From: Luteolibacter sp. Y139
GTDB lineage: Bacteria; Verrucomicrobiota; Verrucomicrobiia; Verrucomicrobiales; Akkermansiaceae
Length of the DNA: 64,000 nt
Reading direction: 5' to 3'
Assembly: GCF_038066715.1 (NCBI RefSeq)
Contig: NZ_JBBUKT010000009.1
Coordinates: forward strand, 62,001 to 126,000
The translations under genes were made by a program, and so were the position numbers. The notes beneath the pieces were generated by a model, which searched no databases, was not told where the DNA came from, and saw only the letters and a list, made by a program, of their open reading frames with translations. Of this stretch, positions 40,470-48,090 are shown in pieces (the stretch's first letter is position 1; each line of letters opens with the position of its first letter).

Positions 40470-42038
40470 ATGAAAGCCTCTCTTTTCCTCCTCGCCCTCA
40501 TTACATCCGCCCACGCCGGTCTTTCCGATCCGAAAGGCGTCTGGCAGCTCGATGTCGGACTTGGCGGCACGCTTCCCTCCTACACGGCGCTGGATGCCTC
40601 CTCGCTGACTTACCCGGCGGACTACAGTTTCGCCACCGACGGCACCTACCAGTTCCTGCAGACCCAGGCGTTCAACTCGCCGGCAAAGCGTCTCACGGTT
40701 ACCAATCCCACCGGTCCGAATGGCGGTCCGGGCGCGACCCGCACCAACCAGTGGACCGTGGTGATGGACGTGAAGTTCGATGCCTTCCAGCCCTACGCCG
40801 GCATCCTCCAGTTCAATCCGGCCAATAACACCGACGTCTCGATCTACCTGTTCTCCGCGAACAATCTCACTGCCACCCTCAACGCGGGCCTGAGCTCCAC
40901 CGGAGCCATCGCGGTGAATACCTGGTACCGCCTCGCGATTACCTGCGGCAACAATGGCACAGGTGGCCCCACCGCCATGAAGTTCTACCTCAATGGCGTC
41001 CCGAATGGCACGCCGCGGACGAGCACCTTCGATGGCGGGCTTTCGCTCCAGTCCACCTTCCATCTCTTCTCGGACGATGGGAATGGCGGCGATCTGAAGC
41101 CGGCCAAGCTCAGCTCCTTCGGCCTGTGGGGCGAGGAACTCAGCGCCGCCGATATCGCCAGCCTCGGCGGCCCGCAGGCCGGCGGACTTCCATCCCCGCC
41201 GCTGCCGAGCACGATCGCAGCGGGATCGCCCTATGCCCATGGGGCGAACATCGGCTGGATCCACGCCAAGCCTGCTACCAACGGCGTGGTGATCGGCGAG
41301 TATGCCTGCTCCGGCTACGCCCACAGCGCGAATTGCGGGTGGATCAACTTCGGCGACGGGACGCCCACCAATGGCTTCCGCTATGCGAACACCGATGGCA
41401 GCGACAGCGGCGTGAATCACGATGGCGCGGGCAATCTCTCCGGCCTCGCGTGGGGAGCCAATATCGGCTGGATCAACTTCGGCACGGGATCGAACGGAGC
41501 GCCTCGCCCGCTTTCAGACCCGGATCGCCCGCGCTTCGACCTCATCACCGGCCAGTTCAGTGGATACGCCCATGGGGCCAATGTCGGCTGGATCAACCTG
41601 AGCACGCTGCAAGCCGCTTCCATCTACAGCGTGGATGACGATGGCGACGGAATCGCCGATCTATGGGAGCGCGAGAACTTCGCCAATCTCACCACGGCAA
41701 CCGCATCGACCGATACGGATCACGATGGCGTTTCCGACAAGGACGAATACCTCGCCGACAGCGATCCGAACGACCCTAACAGCCGCCTGCGGATCATTGA
41801 TCACCTCGTCCAGTTCTTCCCTAACGAAGGCTACAATAGTTGGGACGTTTCCTTCACCAGTTCGCCACGCCGGCTCTACCGCATCGAGACTTCCACGGAC
41901 CTCGGGGCTACTCCGTGGCAGGACGCCAGCGGACTGTTTCCGGGGTCTTCCGGCACCTCGACCAGCCACGGGATTTCCGCCCAGCCATCGCCCAGGAATT
42001 TCCTCCGGGTGTCGGTCGCCAAACCTCTTCAACCATGA
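40470..42038 (+). CDS. Secreted LamG protein with GANIGWI repeats and Ca-binding C-terminal module
   Basis: Start at ATG 40470 gives MKASLFLLALITSAHAG, a clean signal peptide; 522 residues. Residues about 20-240 are a LamG-like lectin sandwich. Residues about 250-380 carry four copies of a motif G-[YL]-A-[HW]-[GS]-A-N-[IVC]-G-W-I-[NH], at about 41229, 41311, 41441 and 41562. A calcium-binding type-3 repeat follows (TDTDHDGVSDKDEY). The end is the sandwich domain YRIETSTDLGATPWQD … FLRVSVAKPLQP shared with other secreted proteins in this window. The stop overlaps the ATG of the next gene by four bases (ATGA), implying translational coupling with the first propeller protein. Confidence 0.8.
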   Translation: MKASLFLLALITSAHAGLSDPKGVWQLDVGLGGTLPSYTALDASSLTYPADYSFATDGTYQFLQTQAFNSPAKRLTVTNPTGPNGGPGATRTNQWTVVMDVKFDAFQPYAGILQFNPANNTDVSIYLFSANNLTATLNAGLSSTGAIAVNTWYRLAITCGNNGTGGPTAMKFYLNGVPNGTPRTSTFDGGLSLQSTFHLFSDDGNGGDLKPAKLSSFGLWGEELSAADIASLGGPQAGGLPSPPLPSTIAAGSPYAHGANIGWIHAKPATNGVVIGEYACSGYAHSANCGWINFGDGTPTNGFRYANTDGSDSGVNHDGAGNLSGLAWGANIGWINFGTGSNGAPRPLSDPDRPRFDLITGQFSGYAHGANVGWINLSTLQAASIYSVDDDGDGIADLWERENFANLTTATASTDTDHDGVSDKDEYLADSDPNDPNSRLRIIDHLVQFFPNEGYNSWDVSFTSSPRRLYRIETSTDLGATPWQDASGLFPGSSGTSTSHGISAQPSPRNFLRVSVAKPLQP

Positions 42039-43246
42039 CCTCCCGGCTTCTCACTCTTGGCGCGTGCTTGATGCCGGTCGTCGTCTTCGCGCAAGGACCC
42101 TTGGCCCCTCCAGCTGGTGCGCCTGCTCCGACGATGAAGTCCCTGCAGGAGCTCTGGGACCGGATCGGCACGGTGGAATCCCAGCTCACCCAGCTAAAGG
42201 CGCAGAACCGGGTGCTTTCCGGCTTGCTGTCATCCTCGTCCGTCAATTTCGCGTGGATCGTCACTGCCGTCGACAGTTCGGTGAACGTGGGCGCGACCTC
42301 GCTCAGGTTCGGGAAGGATGGCGAACCCGCCATCGCCTACAACGACGCCACCAATTTCGATCTCCGCTTTGCTCGCTATAATGGCAGCACATGGACGACC
42401 ACCCCGGTCGATGTGGCGGGCTCGGTCGGTAGCTACTGCTCGCTCGCCTTTGCACCGGATGGCCAGCCGGCCATCGCCTACTACGACTTCACCAATACCA
42501 ATCTCAAGTATTCGAAGTTCAACGGCTCCACCTGGCAATCCGTCACCGTCGAGAATAGTGCCGGGGACGTCGGCCGGTATCCTTCGCTGGCCTTCGGTCC
42601 GGATGGGCAGCCTGCGATTTCATACTACGATCTTAGTAATTCCAATCTCAAGATTGCCCGTTTCACTTCCGGCTGGGTGGCGACGACGGTAGACAACAAC
42701 GCGGCCGACGTCGGCTCTTATAGTTCGCTCGCTTTCGGTCCCGATGGCCAACCCGCGATCTCGTATTTCGATGGAACGAACTACGACCTCAAGTTCGCAC
42801 GATTCAACGGAGCATCCTGGAGTATTGAGGCGATTGACGCCAGCAACGCGACCGGCCAATCCACCTCGCTCGCCTTCGGCCCCGACGGCCAGCCCGCCAT
42901 CGCCCACTACTATGTGGCGGCGGAGGCCATCCGGATGGCACGCTACAATGGCAGCACTTGGACGGTCACAGGGATTGGCAGCACCGGAAACACCAGCGGC
43001 AGCACCTCCCTTGCCTTCGGCCCCGATGGCCAGCCGGCGGTCGCGTATTCGGTGACACCTTTGATTCATCTAGATTTCGCCCGCTACGACGGAAGCACTT
43101 GGAAGATCTCAAGCGTGAACAGCCCGAGCCAAGGCGGCACGAACCCCTCGCTCGCGTTCGGTCCTGACGGCCAGCCAGCCATCTCCTACTCTAACAACTC
43201 CTCCCTGATCTTCGTTCGCAAGGGCGTCTTCCAGCCCGCACCGTAA
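42035..43246 (+). CDS. Secreted seven-repeat protein, predicted beta-propeller, with N-terminal PPxGxPxPxMKxL module
   Basis: 403 residues from ATG 42035, which overlaps the preceding stop (ATGA). A signal peptide ends at VVFAQ. Directly after comes GPLAPPAGAPAPTMKSLQEL and a short coiled coil (about 40-65). Seven repeats of about 47 residues follow, consensus SLAFGPDGQPAIxYYDxxNxDLKFARYNGSTW. The seventh lacks its last strand, while an unpaired strand (FAWIVTAVDSSVNVG) sits before the first, the classic closure of a seven-bladed propeller. The C-terminus is RKGVFQPAP. Probably secreted or surface-bound; function unknown. Confidence 0.75.
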   Translation: MTSRLLTLGACLMPVVVFAQGPLAPPAGAPAPTMKSLQELWDRIGTVESQLTQLKAQNRVLSGLLSSSSVNFAWIVTAVDSSVNVGATSLRFGKDGEPAIAYNDATNFDLRFARYNGSTWTTTPVDVAGSVGSYCSLAFAPDGQPAIAYYDFTNTNLKYSKFNGSTWQSVTVENSAGDVGRYPSLAFGPDGQPAISYYDLSNSNLKIARFTSGWVATTVDNNAADVGSYSSLAFGPDGQPAISYFDGTNYDLKFARFNGASWSIEAIDASNATGQSTSLAFGPDGQPAIAHYYVAAEAIRMARYNGSTWTVTGIGSTGNTSGSTSLAFGPDGQPAVAYSVTPLIHLDFARYDGSTWKISSVNSPSQGGTNPSLAFGPDGQPAISYSNNSSLIFVRKGVFQPAP

Positions 43247-43267
43247 ACCCGCTTCATCTCCTCTCCC

Positions 43268-44959
43268 ATGAAACGACTGATCCTCCTGTTGCTGGCCGCT
43301 GTTCCGGCCTTCGCCCAAGGTCCGCTGATCCCGCCGGTGGGTCCGCCTGTGCCTTCGATGAAGACGCTCGATCAAATCGAAGCGCGTACGCCGATCGAAT
43401 CGTTGCCCATTACCATCAGTGCTCCAGGGAGCTACTACTTCACGAAGAACCTCCAGCATACTGGAGCAGGCCATGCCATCACGATCACCTCTAACAACGT
43501 CACGCTTGATCTCGGTGGCTTCACCTTGAGCTCCACCGCTGCTGTCAGCGGCAGGGGCATTGTCGTCAACGGCGGTCTCAACAACATCACGATCAGGAAC
43601 GGCAACATCACCGGGACCACCACGGTCTCCATCTCCGGCGCCCCTCCCAGTCAGACGTGGACAGCGACCCCCGGTGGGTTTGAGACCGGGCTGTATGCCG
43701 ATGCCGCCTCCGGTATCCCGTTTGGCGCCTTCCGGAACATGACGGTGGAAAACCTCCAGGTAAGCGGCTGCCGCACCTGGGGAATTGTCGCCTACTATGC
43801 GACAGTCACCAACTCGTCGGTCGCGTCAAATGGCAGCGAGGGACTCATCGTCTCGGAAGGCACCGTCAACAATTGCATCGCCAAATACAACGGCAGCTCT
43901 GGAATATCCGGGGCCACCGTCTATGGCTCCAGCGCCCAGCACAATGGAGGCAGAGGGATCTTCGGCACTACCGTCACCAGTTCGGCATCCATGTTCAATG
44001 CCCAGGACGGGATCCTTGCTTCCTCGGGAAGCGTCACTGCTTGCACAGCTCTATACAACCACGCCTCGACGGGGACCTATTACGATCTCAATGCCACCGA
44101 CGCCGTGATCGCCTCCACGAAGTACGGGACAGGCAATGTGACCGGCAGTTCCATCGATGGCGAGCGGCGCACGGCGATCGACTCGCTGCCCGTTACCATC
44201 AGCACTCCCGGAAGCTACTACTTCACCAAGAACCTCGAGTCCACCGGTGGAGGGCATGCCATCACCATCACCTCTAACAACGTCACGCTCGACCTCGGCG
44301 GCTTCACCCTGAGTTCCACCGCTGCAGTGACCGCCAGGGGTATCGTTGTGAACGGTGGTCTCACCAACATCACGATCAAGAATGGCAACATCACCGGGAC
44401 CACCACCGTCTCCGTCTCCGGTGCCCCTCCCAGTCAGACCTGGACAGCGACCCCTGGCGGGTTCGAGACCGGACTGTATGCCGACGCCAGCTCTGGCTAT
44501 CCGTATGGCGCCTTCCGGAACATGACCGTGGAAAACCTCCAGGTCAGCGGCTGTCGAACCTGGGGAATTGTCGCCTACTACGCGACCGTCACCAACTCGT
44601 CGGTCGCGTCGAATGGCAGCGAGGGACTCATCGTCTCGGAAGGCACCGTCACCAATTGCATCGCCAAATACAACGGGAGTTCCGGGATATCCGGGGCAAC
44701 CGTCACCGGCTCCAGCGCCCAGCACAATGGAGGCAGAGGAATGTTCGGCAATACCATCACCAGTTCGGTAGCCATGTTCAATGGCCAGGACGGCATCCTT
44801 GCCTCTTCGGGAAGCGTCACCTCCAGCACCGCTTTATACAACCACACCTCCACCGGAACCTACTACGATCTCAACGCCACCGACGCCGTGGTCGCTCTCT
44901 CCAAATACGGTACGGGCCTCACCACCGGCAGCACGCTTACCGGAAACAAGACGCCCTGA
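43268..44959 (+). CDS. Secreted beta-helix protein with internal tandem duplication
   Basis: 563 residues. The signal peptide (RLILLLLAAVPAFAQ) is followed by GPLIPPVGPPVPSMKTLDQI, the N-terminal module shared with three neighbours. The remainder is two almost identical copies of a 261-residue right-handed beta-helix. Each begins SLP[IV]TIS[AT]PGSYYFTKNL, includes TLDLGGFTLSSTAAV, and ends near ATDAV[IV]A. There is no catalytic motif, and the coils are rich in serine, threonine and asparagine. The ATG follows CATCTCCTCTCCC. It lies 21 bases after the propeller gene and 28 bases before the next beta-helix gene, so it is likely part of one transcript. Confidence 0.8.
   Translation: MKRLILLLLAAVPAFAQGPLIPPVGPPVPSMKTLDQIEARTPIESLPITISAPGSYYFTKNLQHTGAGHAITITSNNVTLDLGGFTLSSTAAVSGRGIVVNGGLNNITIRNGNITGTTTVSISGAPPSQTWTATPGGFETGLYADAASGIPFGAFRNMTVENLQVSGCRTWGIVAYYATVTNSSVASNGSEGLIVSEGTVNNCIAKYNGSSGISGATVYGSSAQHNGGRGIFGTTVTSSASMFNAQDGILASSGSVTACTALYNHASTGTYYDLNATDAVIASTKYGTGNVTGSSIDGERRTAIDSLPVTISTPGSYYFTKNLESTGGGHAITITSNNVTLDLGGFTLSSTAAVTARGIVVNGGLTNITIKNGNITGTTTVSVSGAPPSQTWTATPGGFETGLYADASSGYPYGAFRNMTVENLQVSGCRTWGIVAYYATVTNSSVASNGSEGLIVSEGTVTNCIAKYNGSSGISGATVTGSSAQHNGGRGMFGNTITSSVAMFNGQDGILASSGSVTSSTALYNHTSTGTYYDLNATDAVVALSKYGTGLTTGSTLTGNKTP
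43388..44953 (+). repeat. Tandem direct repeat, two 783-base units, inside the beta-helix gene
   Basis: The unit at about 43388-44170 is repeated at about 44171-44953 with an in-frame offset of 783 bases (261 codons). Long stretches are identical at DNA level, for example around the CACCTCTAACAACGTCACGCT segment. The high DNA identity indicates a recent duplication or ongoing homogenisation. Confidence 0.85.
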
Positions 44960-44987
44960 GGCGGATACATCGCGAATCCAATAGCCC

Positions 44988-46793
44988 ATGATCCCACAAA
45001 CGATGCCGTCGAGACGGTCCCACTCTACGGCCCTCCTGCTGGGTATCACCGCTCTGGTATTTTCTTCAGCTGCCTTCGCCCAAGGCCCGCTCGCTCCGCC
45101 CGCGGGCCCGCCGGTGCCGAGCATGAAGACCCTCGATCAGATCGAGGCGCGTATCCCAATCAACGCCACCACGGCACCCGGCAATGCGAATGCGGTCCAC
45201 GTCATTTCCACCCCCGGCTCCTACTATCTGACGGGTGATGTGCAGGGTGTCGCGTCGAAGGATGGTATCCTCATCGAGGCAAGCAATGTCACCCTCGATC
45301 TCAATGGCTACTCGCTCAAAGGATTGGGGAGTTCGTTGAATGGCATCGGCATTTCACGCAGCGGAGCGGCACTTACCGGCCTCACCATTCGGAATGGATT
45401 CATCACCGGCTTCGGCCAGCGCGGCATCTACACCGTCGGCACCGGTGCCATCCACGGGCTGACCATGGAGGACCTCACCATCGCCTGCGTCGGCACCGGC
45501 CTCCGGTCGGATGTGGCGGGCTCCACCATCGTGCGCCGGGTTCTCGTTCGCGGAGGGTCGGGCGGCATTCAGTGCGCCGGTGGAAACAGCTTGGATCAGA
45601 TCGAGGACAGCATGGTGAGCGGCATCACCGGCGAGGCCATCGTCGGCGATGTGGTGGAACGTTGCCAAGTCGGCCAGGTGACCAACTCCGGCCTGGTCGT
45701 CATCAGCGGCAGCCGGATTTCCCACTGCCGCGTTGCATCCGTCAGCGGCACAGTCGGCCTCGTCGGGATCTACGGCGAAGAGGTGAACGATTGCGTGGTT
45801 TCCGATCTCACCCTCACGGCAGCAGGGCCGGTCGATGGCGTGACAGGGGATCTCGTCACTGCCACCCGCGTGCAGAACCTTATTTCCGCCGGCGGAAATG
45901 TCCGCGGCATAGCCCAGCGCAACGCACCCCAAGGCATCGTGAACGGCTGCTCGGTGGCCAGCCTCAAGACCACCGGGAGTGGCACGGTCACGGGCATCGA
46001 TGCTGACTCGGTGACCGCCAGCCAGATCTCCCGCATTGGCTACGAAAGCTCCACCGGAGTAGTCACCGGAATCAACTTTGGCTCTCTGGTGAGCGACTGC
46101 TCGCTCCAGACGATCGGCCACGCCGGCGTCACCTCCTCGGTGAACGGCATTTATAATTCCGTCACGAACACCGGCACTGTCACCAAGGTGACGCTCCAGA
46201 CATTCAAGGGCGCCGGTACCGTGGTGGGCATTCGCTCCGGAATCGTGGACCATGCCAACGTCACGGGATTCGTGCAGAATGGCAGCGGATTCACCGGCAA
46301 CCAAGCCATTGCGGCCCAGAGCGTCTCGAACTGCACCGTCTCCAATCTGGTGGCGAACACCTCCATCGCCATCTACGCGATCTTCGCCGAGAATGTGACC
46401 GACACCCGCGTCGACCTGGTCTCAAACGACGGCGGAACAGCGAACGGCATCAACGGCACCAGCATCGTGAATTGCTCCGTCAGCAATCTCGATGGCATCG
46501 GCATCGGGGGCACCACCACTACCACCCGCATCAGCGGCTGTTCCGTGGCTAATGCCGGCGTCCTCGGCATCCAATTCGGCGGCTCGGGCGGCGTCCTGGA
46601 CGACAATACGGTCACTGGATGCCCCACCGGCATCCAGACCCTCGCGGGTTCCGGCCGGGTCGTCGTCCGCGGCAACAGCGTCAGCACCTGCACGACCCGC
46701 TACAGCATGAGTGCCAACTCGGCGGTCGGCCCGATCGTCACTGCCACCGGAATCATCGCGAGCACCAATCCATTCGCGAATTTCTCCGATTGA
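44988..46793 (+). CDS. Secreted beta-helix protein with N-terminal PPxGPPxPSMKTL module
   Basis: 601 residues. The start may be ATG 44988 or 45003; both keep the signal peptide that ends VFSSAAFAQ. GPLAPPAGPPVPSMKTLDQI follows, and then SYYLTGDVQGVASKDGILIE, closely related to the previous protein's first coils. The rest is a long right-handed beta-helix of irregular short coils (GNSVSTCTTRYSM near the end), with no internal duplication. A secreted structural or binding role is likely; no active site can be named. It is third of four adjacent genes sharing the N-terminal module. Confidence 0.78.
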   Translation: MIPQTMPSRRSHSTALLLGITALVFSSAAFAQGPLAPPAGPPVPSMKTLDQIEARIPINATTAPGNANAVHVISTPGSYYLTGDVQGVASKDGILIEASNVTLDLNGYSLKGLGSSLNGIGISRSGAALTGLTIRNGFITGFGQRGIYTVGTGAIHGLTMEDLTIACVGTGLRSDVAGSTIVRRVLVRGGSGGIQCAGGNSLDQIEDSMVSGITGEAIVGDVVERCQVGQVTNSGLVVISGSRISHCRVASVSGTVGLVGIYGEEVNDCVVSDLTLTAAGPVDGVTGDLVTATRVQNLISAGGNVRGIAQRNAPQGIVNGCSVASLKTTGSGTVTGIDADSVTASQISRIGYESSTGVVTGINFGSLVSDCSLQTIGHAGVTSSVNGIYNSVTNTGTVTKVTLQTFKGAGTVVGIRSGIVDHANVTGFVQNGSGFTGNQAIAAQSVSNCTVSNLVANTSIAIYAIFAENVTDTRVDLVSNDGGTANGINGTSIVNCSVSNLDGIGIGGTTTTTRISGCSVANAGVLGIQFGGSGGVLDDNTVTGCPTGIQTLAGSGRVVVRGNSVSTCTTRYSMSANSAVGPIVTATGIIASTNPFANFSD

Positions 46794-46821
46794 TCGCCCG
46801 GTCATTGCTACCTGCCCTCTC

Positions 46822-48090
46822 ATGAAACTCCTCGCTTTCGCCATTGCTCTCGTTCCTTTTCCCCTGCTCGCCCAAGGCCCGCTCGAGCCACCCGCCGGGC
46901 CACCGGCAGCGAGCATGAAGACGCTGCAGGAACTTTCGGATCAGATCGCGCAGCTCGGCACGCAGCTTTCCACGGCTCAATCCGATCTCGTGAAAACCCG
47001 CGCCGCCTTGGGCCGGGTTCAGGCCGACCAGCAGCTTCTAACGGGCCTGCTCTCGACCTCGGCGGCAAGCCTGAGCCTGCCTTGGAACATCGGAATTGTG
47101 GAGAGCGCGAATTCTGTCGGCACTTTCCACTCCATGACCCTCAGCCCGGAGGGGCAGCCTGCCGTTGCCTACTACAAGCTCACCGGCACGGATTTGAAAT
47201 ACGCCATCTACGATGGCAGCTCCTGGCACATCGAAACCGCGAGCGGGTTTGGCGGCGTGGACACGTCCATCGCCTTCGGTCCCAATGGAGAACCTGCCAT
47301 CTCAAGCTGGAACGTCATCCTCGGCGCCACCAGTGCGGTGCAGTACTCCACTCGCGACGCAGGAGTATGGACCACGGTGGAAGTTGACGTCGGCAATAAC
47401 ATCGGACGAAACACCTCACTTGCCTTCGGACCCGATGGCCAACCCGCCATCGCCTACTACGATCAGCCCAACGGCAACCTGAAATTCGCCCGTTACAACG
47501 GCGTCACCTGGACAATCGTCACCGTTGACAATAGCGCTGCGGACGTGGGGGGTGTGGACAACTCCCTTGTCTTCGGTCCCGATGGCCAGCCTGCCATCGC
47601 CTACTACGACGCGACCAATCAAGATCTCAAGTTCGCTCGCTACAATGGCAGCACCTGGACGCTGACCACGGTGGACAGCACCGGCTCGGTCGGCGTCGAT
47701 CCTTCGTTGAAATTCGGCCCTGATGGCCAGCCCGCCATTGCGTATTTGGATCTTGGTAATCTCGATCTCAAGATCGCCCGCTACAACGGCACCACCTGGA
47801 CCCCGGCGACGGTTGAAAGTGCGGGTGCAGTGGGCCGCTCCGCCTCGCTCGCCTTTGGCCCCGACGGCCAGCCGGCCATCTCCCATCACGATCAGGGCAC
47901 TCAGGACCTCCGCTTCACCCGCTACAATGGCAGCTCATGGACGGGCGGCACGGTTGATACTCCGGGCAATGTCGGCTCGTTCTGCGCCCTTTCCTTCGGC
48001 TTCGATGGCCAGCCGGTGATCTCCTACTACGATCAGACCAATGAGGATCTGAAGTTCGCCCGCAAAGGCGTCTTCAAGCCCGCGCCCTGA
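46822..48090 (+). CDS. Secreted seven-repeat protein, predicted beta-propeller, with N-terminal PPxGPP module
   Basis: 422 residues from ATG 46822, after the CU-rich leader ACCTGCCCTCTC. Signal peptide ends FPLLAQ. GPLEPPAGPPAASMKTLQEL follows, then a coiled coil (about 40-80), then seven repeats of about 47 residues of the SLAFGPDGQPAIAYYD type with an extra strand (PWNIGIVESANSVG) before the first. The C-terminus is RKGVFKPAP, nearly identical to the protein encoded at 42035, so the two are paralogues at opposite ends of the four-gene cluster. Function unknown; propeller fold predicted from repeat number and strand permutation. Confidence 0.75.
   Translation: MKLLAFAIALVPFPLLAQGPLEPPAGPPAASMKTLQELSDQIAQLGTQLSTAQSDLVKTRAALGRVQADQQLLTGLLSTSAASLSLPWNIGIVESANSVGTFHSMTLSPEGQPAVAYYKLTGTDLKYAIYDGSSWHIETASGFGGVDTSIAFGPNGEPAISSWNVILGATSAVQYSTRDAGVWTTVEVDVGNNIGRNTSLAFGPDGQPAIAYYDQPNGNLKFARYNGVTWTIVTVDNSAADVGGVDNSLVFGPDGQPAIAYYDATNQDLKFARYNGSTWTLTTVDSTGSVGVDPSLKFGPDGQPAIAYLDLGNLDLKIARYNGTTWTPATVESAGAVGRSASLAFGPDGQPAISHHDQGTQDLRFTRYNGSSWTGGTVDTPGNVGSFCALSFGFDGQPVISYYDQTNEDLKFARKGVFKPAP

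Follow-up and report, generated by a model that had tools for sequence, protein, structure and literature searches.

What does a short N-terminal sequence do when four adjacent secreted proteins carry it in front of bodies of different folds? The question is raised by a locus at 42035-48090 of the window (the whole stretch of 64,000 nucleotides of Luteolibacter sp. Y139 DNA that was analysed), where four genes lie on the same strand, each coding for a signal peptide, a segment of the form QGPLxPPxGxPxxxMKxL (further called the tag) and a body, and where the bodies of genes 1 to 4 follow one another as propeller, beta-helix, beta-helix and propeller. The original prediction for this DNA was that of four adjacent secreted proteins with a common N-terminal tag, the first gene being coupled by an ATGA overlap to an upstream LamG gene. 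The open reading frames, signal peptides and tags are all present, and the ATG of gene 1 at 42035 indeed lies on the TGA that closes the gene before it (40470-42038), here called the partner gene. Of its LamG assignment, a ConA/LamG-like N-terminal part is discernible by eye, while the Pfam LamG models leave it unmatched at E <= 1. The idea of a tag survives; what the prediction missed is a domain of this coupled neighbour, named GWIN, which is the companion of the tag across phyla. The features of the locus are as follows.

40470..42038, + strand: partner gene; open reading frame with a signal peptide, a ConA/LamG-like N-terminal region (by eye), GWIN, a TSP3-like linker and a C-terminal 'RLYRIETSTDL' domain
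41193..41636, + strand: GWIN domain; four N-x-G-W repeats, from the alignment, conserved across phyla
42035..43246, + strand: gene 1; open reading frame with a signal peptide, tag, coiled-coil helix and beta-propeller, from the alignment with gene 4 and the heptad pattern
42089..42166 (contig C9:104089-104166, window offset 62000), + strand: tag 1, AQGPLAPPAGAPAPTMKSLQELWDRI, profile E 7.1e-17
43268..44959, + strand: gene 2; open reading frame with a signal peptide, tag and right-handed beta-helix, the body duplicated internally
43313..43390, + strand: tag 2, AQGPLIPPVGPPVPSMKTLDQIEART, profile E 3.7e-17
44988..46793, + strand: gene 3; open reading frame with a signal peptide, tag and right-handed beta-helix, from the AF2 model and the alignment with 76 relatives
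45078..45155, + strand: tag 3, AQGPLAPPAGPPVPSMKTLDQIEARI, profile E 2.3e-17
46822..48090, + strand: gene 4; open reading frame with a signal peptide, tag, 50-residue helix and 7-bladed beta-propeller, from the AF2 model
46870..46947, + strand: tag 4, AQGPLEPPAGPPAASMKTLQELSDQI, profile E 2.9e-16

The tag and its place in the protein

The sequence AQGPLxPPxGxPxxxMK[ST]L stands directly after the signal peptide in all four proteins. A four-tag profile run against the whole 7.1 Mb genome returned the window tags at E values from 2e-17 to 3e-16, far beyond chance, and two other real matches only, both in secreted beta-helix proteins on contig C3 (E 4e-11 and 2e-9); the next best match, at E = 0.24, was to a 33-aa frame. 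The beta-helix body of gene 2 is doubled internally (84% DNA identity of 43385-43600 and 44167-44382), a recent event inside the gene, and since the second copy of the body is devoid of the tag ('GERRTAIDSLPVTIS' versus 'MKTLDQIEARTPIESLPITIS'), the tag and the beta-helix are distinct units. A promoter and terminator scan gave no signal exceeding the shuffled expectation.

The tag is about 20-25 residues long, with the consensus G-x-L-x-P-P-G-x-P-x-P-T-M-K-[TS]-L-x-[QE]-[IV]. As the DNA pattern used in the wider scan fixes several tag residues, conservation was counted in tags selected by profile only. With 111 of these aligned on their MKTL, P is found at -8 in 95% and at -4 in 97%, T/S at -1 in 85%, the M in 91%, K in 80%, T/S and L in 100% each and Q/E at +5 in 98%, figures that are upper estimates, since the selecting profile itself favours those residues. 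A signal peptide immediately precedes the tag in 112 of 114 distinct profile-selected proteins, the two exceptions, both secreted, being one protein whose hydrophobicity falls under the cut-off and another whose tag has diverged. Occurrence of the tag in cytoplasmic proteins, one of two outcomes that the original prediction had set against itself, is thus rejected; the non-secreted pattern matches, L093/L112 and L178, are due to chance.

The tag belongs to no known family in Pfam or NCBIfam, and PDB sequence searches with the tag and with GWIN returned antibody fragments and other chance matches. The PHROGs matches of the window proteins are weak and lie within the bodies. The motif strings of both the tag and GWIN are absent from the open-access papers searched.

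Spread of the tag and of its companion domain

The tag was matched in 17 of 57 related genomes, convincingly in 13 of the 18 belonging to the same genus. A profile search of 289 genomes of the phylum, the survey of Verrucomicrobiota that the original prediction had proposed, found it in 28 genomes from 22 genera, a single genome having as many as 12 copies, and with tandem arrays such as the five on G303:C17 and the six on G229:C23. When about 85,000 species genomes were scanned with a DNA pattern, 111 stretches were obtained, nearly all of which translate to a signal peptide followed by the tag, three being clear chance matches. They come from Verrucomicrobiota (including Kiritimatiellae and Lentisphaerae), Planctomycetota, Chloroflexi, delta- and gammaproteobacteria, Nitrospirae, Acidobacteria, Auribacterota and a Yanofskybacterium, with the phyla taken from the record titles and many of the records being MAGs. 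These surveys are limited by MAG contamination and by the sensitivity of a search with a 25-residue profile. The spread over many phyla rejects a recent duplication confined to the locus, the other outcome that had been set against the tag.

In one Auribacterota genome double tags are found also at the C-terminus, so the tag is not strictly N-terminal. That genome (G338, a Candidatus Auribacterota MAG of 3.8 Mb; L232-L235) holds at least 96 tag and at least 53 GWIN matches in tandem arrays. Its tags are doubled (GMYTLxQIYDYL ... PGxTMKTxxEIY), stand behind the signal peptide or at the C-terminal end, and accompany fibrinogen-like, LamG and DUF1566-like bodies.

The partner protein of the window matches TSP3_bac only in Pfam, with an E value of 0.011. 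When its residues 248-523 are compared with all open reading frames of the retrieved loci, homologues are found adjoining tag genes in most of these loci, in all phyla. GWIN is the domain of 130-150 aa common to such partner proteins and comprises four N-x-G-W repeats; with a loose pattern, exactly four repeats are counted in 72 of 99 extracted domains, and the median repeat spacing is 29/43/30 in the 77 domains having four strict N-x-G-W cores. Minimal GWIN proteins are barely more than a signal peptide and the domain (167 aa in L247). No Pfam, NCBIfam or meaningful PDB match was found for GWIN.

Among the 57 relatives GWIN is present in 15, and the tag in 15 of these 15; the two relatives with the tag only are G014, with a weak 14-residue match, and G046, an 82% complete genome with the tag on a 4.6 kb contig. 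In the 289 genomes of the phylum 28 carry the tag, 31 GWIN and 25 both (Fisher p ~3e-27, a value that overstates independence, the genomes being related and phylogeny uncorrected). GWIN was also found in 23 of 23 genomes picked solely for the tag outside the focal set of the phylum, mostly from other phyla, and in a sample of 246 Planctomycetota genomes GWIN occurs in four and the tag in three, all three within the four. Moreover, a diverged type II tag (AMYTLxDLYxRL) was discovered beside GWIN in G193 and G202. Its profile matches 7 of the 289 genomes, with GWIN in 7 of 7; five of them already had the type I tag and the others are G193 and G202, owing to which the overlap rises to 27 of the 31 GWIN genomes. 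GWIN was not detected in the tag genomes G169, G289 and G046, all of them fragmented, and no tag was detected in the GWIN genomes G212, G199, G234 and G329. There are usually one or two GWIN copies per genome for one to 12 tags. The tag and GWIN very probably form a two-component system.

The genes of the two components are often neighbours. A tag gene lies within 3.5 kb of 60 of 83 GWIN loci, on the same strand in 60 of 60 (binomial p 2e-18), and of 39 tag genes situated no more than 600 bp from a GWIN domain in genome-contig loci, 30 are upstream of GWIN. Such tight same-strand linkage, together with the patchy spread (28 of 289 genomes of the phylum, 3-4 of 246 Planctomycetota) and the presence of the pair on one IMG/VR contig, would fit a pair of adhesins spreading together by horizontal transfer, co-expressed and non-interacting. 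However, the association holds where the two are unlinked (G303, G217, G305, G345 and G354), and the tag and GWIN stay constant while the bodies vary. The unlinked many-to-one cases, with 12 tags for one GWIN in G303 and eight for one in G217, favour dependence over mere gene linkage and are hard to reconcile with operon hitch-hiking; joint spread of two non-interacting adhesins appears quite improbable.

A third conserved partner was sought by neighbour clustering of the tag loci, which gave sporadic families only and no conserved enzyme beside the pair. A secreted family, DUF4412/LolA-like by eye, is seen in nine tag loci (L071, L088, L101, L126, L133, L137, L176, L194 and L200), in L088 directly after GWIN. 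A phage origin of the pair was considered and rejected: phage and plasmid records contain no match to the GWIN queries, viral contigs nothing with the first tag pattern, and the GWIN search gave the pair on one IMG/VR contig. On this contig (L266, 2589-4810), which is labelled viral and may be a provirus or misclassified host DNA, a tagged propeller gene is followed by a GWIN gene.

Bodies and structural models

The tag is carried by at least six unrelated bodies: beta-helix, 7-bladed propeller, Lcl_C, FGE-sulfatase, Laminin_G_3 and Hcp; those confirmed by Pfam are Lcl_C, Beta_helix, Laminin_G_3, Fibrinogen_C, FGE-sulfatase and T6SS_HCP. One N-terminal module with exchangeable bodies, as originally foreseen, is thus borne out on at least six unrelated folds; the anchor, assembly or sorting role proposed along with it is a putative one. 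In the window, gene 2 matches Pectate_lyase_5 with an E value of 4.3e-5, slightly short of the cut-off, and gene 3 has no Pfam match, while a tagged relative matches Beta_helix at 1.8e-23.

The AF2 prediction for gene 4 (mean pLDDT 82) comprises an unstructured arm with pLDDT below 50, a helix of 50 residues (32-81) whose first residue is the M of MKTL, and 28 strands that form seven four-stranded blades, most of the propeller having pLDDT values over 80. Its best PDB matches are the Photorhabdus PLL/PHL lectins (Foldseek E ~1e-14, TM to target 0.69-0.78), which are likewise seven-bladed; the likeness concerns the fold of the propeller body, the identity being 12-14% and the match covering the propeller only, without tag or stalk. 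In the AF2 model of gene 3 (mean pLDDT 70) a four-residue helix is found at the tag and the beta-helix starts from residue 55; its PDB matches, to alginate epimerases and tailspikes, are weak (TM ~0.2-0.3). The right-handed parallel beta-helix proteins (Pfam Beta_helix and NosD, phage tailspikes, alginate epimerases) probably have the same fold as most tagged relatives and the bodies of genes 2 and 3, but neither the tag nor the GWIN partner belongs to these families.

In both the gene 3 and the gene 4 model the Pro arm of the tag has low confidence and does not pack against the body that follows it. Being conserved yet unpacked, it suggests, as far as the models go, a binding motif. In 21 propeller proteins strong hydrophobic residues occupy 76% of the a/d positions versus 14% of the others, a count in which the first two a/d positions (0 and 3) are fixed by the selection pattern, and 3.5 is the strongest of the periods tested for the stalk. 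Most of the tagged beta-helix proteins have no coiled coil, so that oligomerisation is not a necessary function of the tag.

It is nevertheless conceivable that the tag is a structural neck, with a rigid Pro arm and a helix start nucleating oligomerisation through a coiled coil or capping the N-terminus of the beta-helix in the absence of any dedicated receptor, and that GWIN is just another adhesin of the operon. This would agree with the perfect heptads after the tag in the propeller proteins, the coiled-coil-like inserts between tag and body in some Kiritimatiellae beta-helix proteins, and the helix of the gene 4 model beginning at the tag. A neck of this kind is unlikely, however, as the Pro arm (P at -8 and -4, M and K at the upper-estimate frequencies of 95%, 97%, 91% and 80%) is kept beyond the needs of a helix start and is unpacked in the models, the Lcl_C, Hcp and FGE bodies come after the tag without a coiled coil, and the coincidence of tag and GWIN in genomes, including the unlinked many-to-one cases, is left unexplained.

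A candidate docking system and its likenesses

The four window proteins are probably cargo of a two-component extracellular tag/GWIN system. In the mechanism that we propose, Sec would export both the tagged protein and the GWIN protein, and signal peptidase would cut before or near QG, so that the mature protein would begin with the tag. The tag would consist of an exposed Pro-rich arm and a helix start, its T/S-L-x-E/Q resembling a capping box; the helix would continue as a coiled-coil stalk in the propeller proteins and be short in most beta-helix proteins, and the bodies, largely of ligand- or surface-binding fold, would serve as interchangeable display heads. The GWIN protein, presumably secreted and with its gene either in the operon of the tagged proteins or at another place of the genome, would recognise the tag by its GWIN domain and dock the tagged proteins on the surface or in an extracellular assembly.

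Trp-rich surfaces bind Pro-rich peptides, as in WW and SH3 domains. Together with the distribution of the two components and the exposed conserved arm, this makes physical docking of the tag by GWIN outside the cell the mechanism with the best support, at odds slightly better than even. The tag genomes in which GWIN was not detected, the GWIN genomes with no detected tag and the tags, around 40%, that are not near any GWIN speak against it. The fuller picture, that of an undescribed docking or sorting system of many phyla in which the Trp repeats of GWIN grip the exposed polyproline arm and display interchangeable heads, is tentative, its chances falling a little short of even. Direct binding of the tag by GWIN, the surface location and the purpose of the assembly are what we infer; as the bodies are mostly ligand- or surface-binding folds, the purpose is likely the display of adhesins or glycan binders.

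The tag/partner system is made of parts without a described family, and its logic resembles those of PEP-CTERM/exosortase and of dockerin-cohesin. In PEP-CTERM/exosortase (EpsH), too, one genome codes for many unrelated secreted proteins with a short homology tag and for a single partner gene, and the link of tag to partner was likewise made by phylogenetic profiling (PMC1569441). However, the PEP-CTERM tag stands at the C-terminus and includes a TM helix and a basic tail, whereas the tag described here is N-terminal, soluble and Pro-rich; the window proteins end with PAP, KTP, NFSD and PAP, and match no PEP-CTERM-type NCBIfam model. Exosortase is an integral-membrane transpeptidase, while the GWIN partner, rather than being a multi-pass membrane protein, has a signal peptide and a secreted repeat domain. 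The similarity of logic and the location of the tag exactly at the mature N-terminus could also indicate a processing or export signal, read by a protease, a transpeptidase or an export device, with GWIN as an accessory or a substrate. Yet neighbour clustering shows no conserved enzyme at the pair, the GWIN repeats contain no recognisable catalytic motif, and we regard such a signal as highly improbable.

The dockerin-cohesin likeness of the putative docking system lies in exchangeable tagged modules that would dock on a secreted partner containing repeats. The systems differ in that Pfam shows no sequence relation, with no match to the dockerin and cohesin families in the tag or partner proteins, and in that docking is here a predicted activity. 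Moreover, the usual number of four GWIN repeats with fixed spacing suggests one closed domain, unlike an expandable scaffold.

If true, the tag/GWIN system would give a common role to many unannotated secreted proteins of Verrucomicrobiota, Planctomycetota and candidate phyla, and two new sequence models, of the tag and of the GWIN domain, are ready for annotation libraries. Should GWIN dock the tag, the two would constitute a new genetically encoded docking pair, extracellular and found on unrelated folds, and the way in which these bacteria hold their surface proteins would become directly testable.

Two minor observations concern the tagged proteins themselves. In Planctomycetota (L218:619-1323 and L226:626-1333) a Sec-type signal peptide and the tag are found on Hcp (T6SS_HCP, E 2e-35), the type VI secretion Hcp being unusual as the body of a protein exported by Sec. 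Many tagged beta-helix proteins have a [DNHS]PWANF[ST][YF]-like end, which in gene 3 reads NPFANFSD (window 46770-46790); this conserved C-terminus is perhaps a second shared signal.
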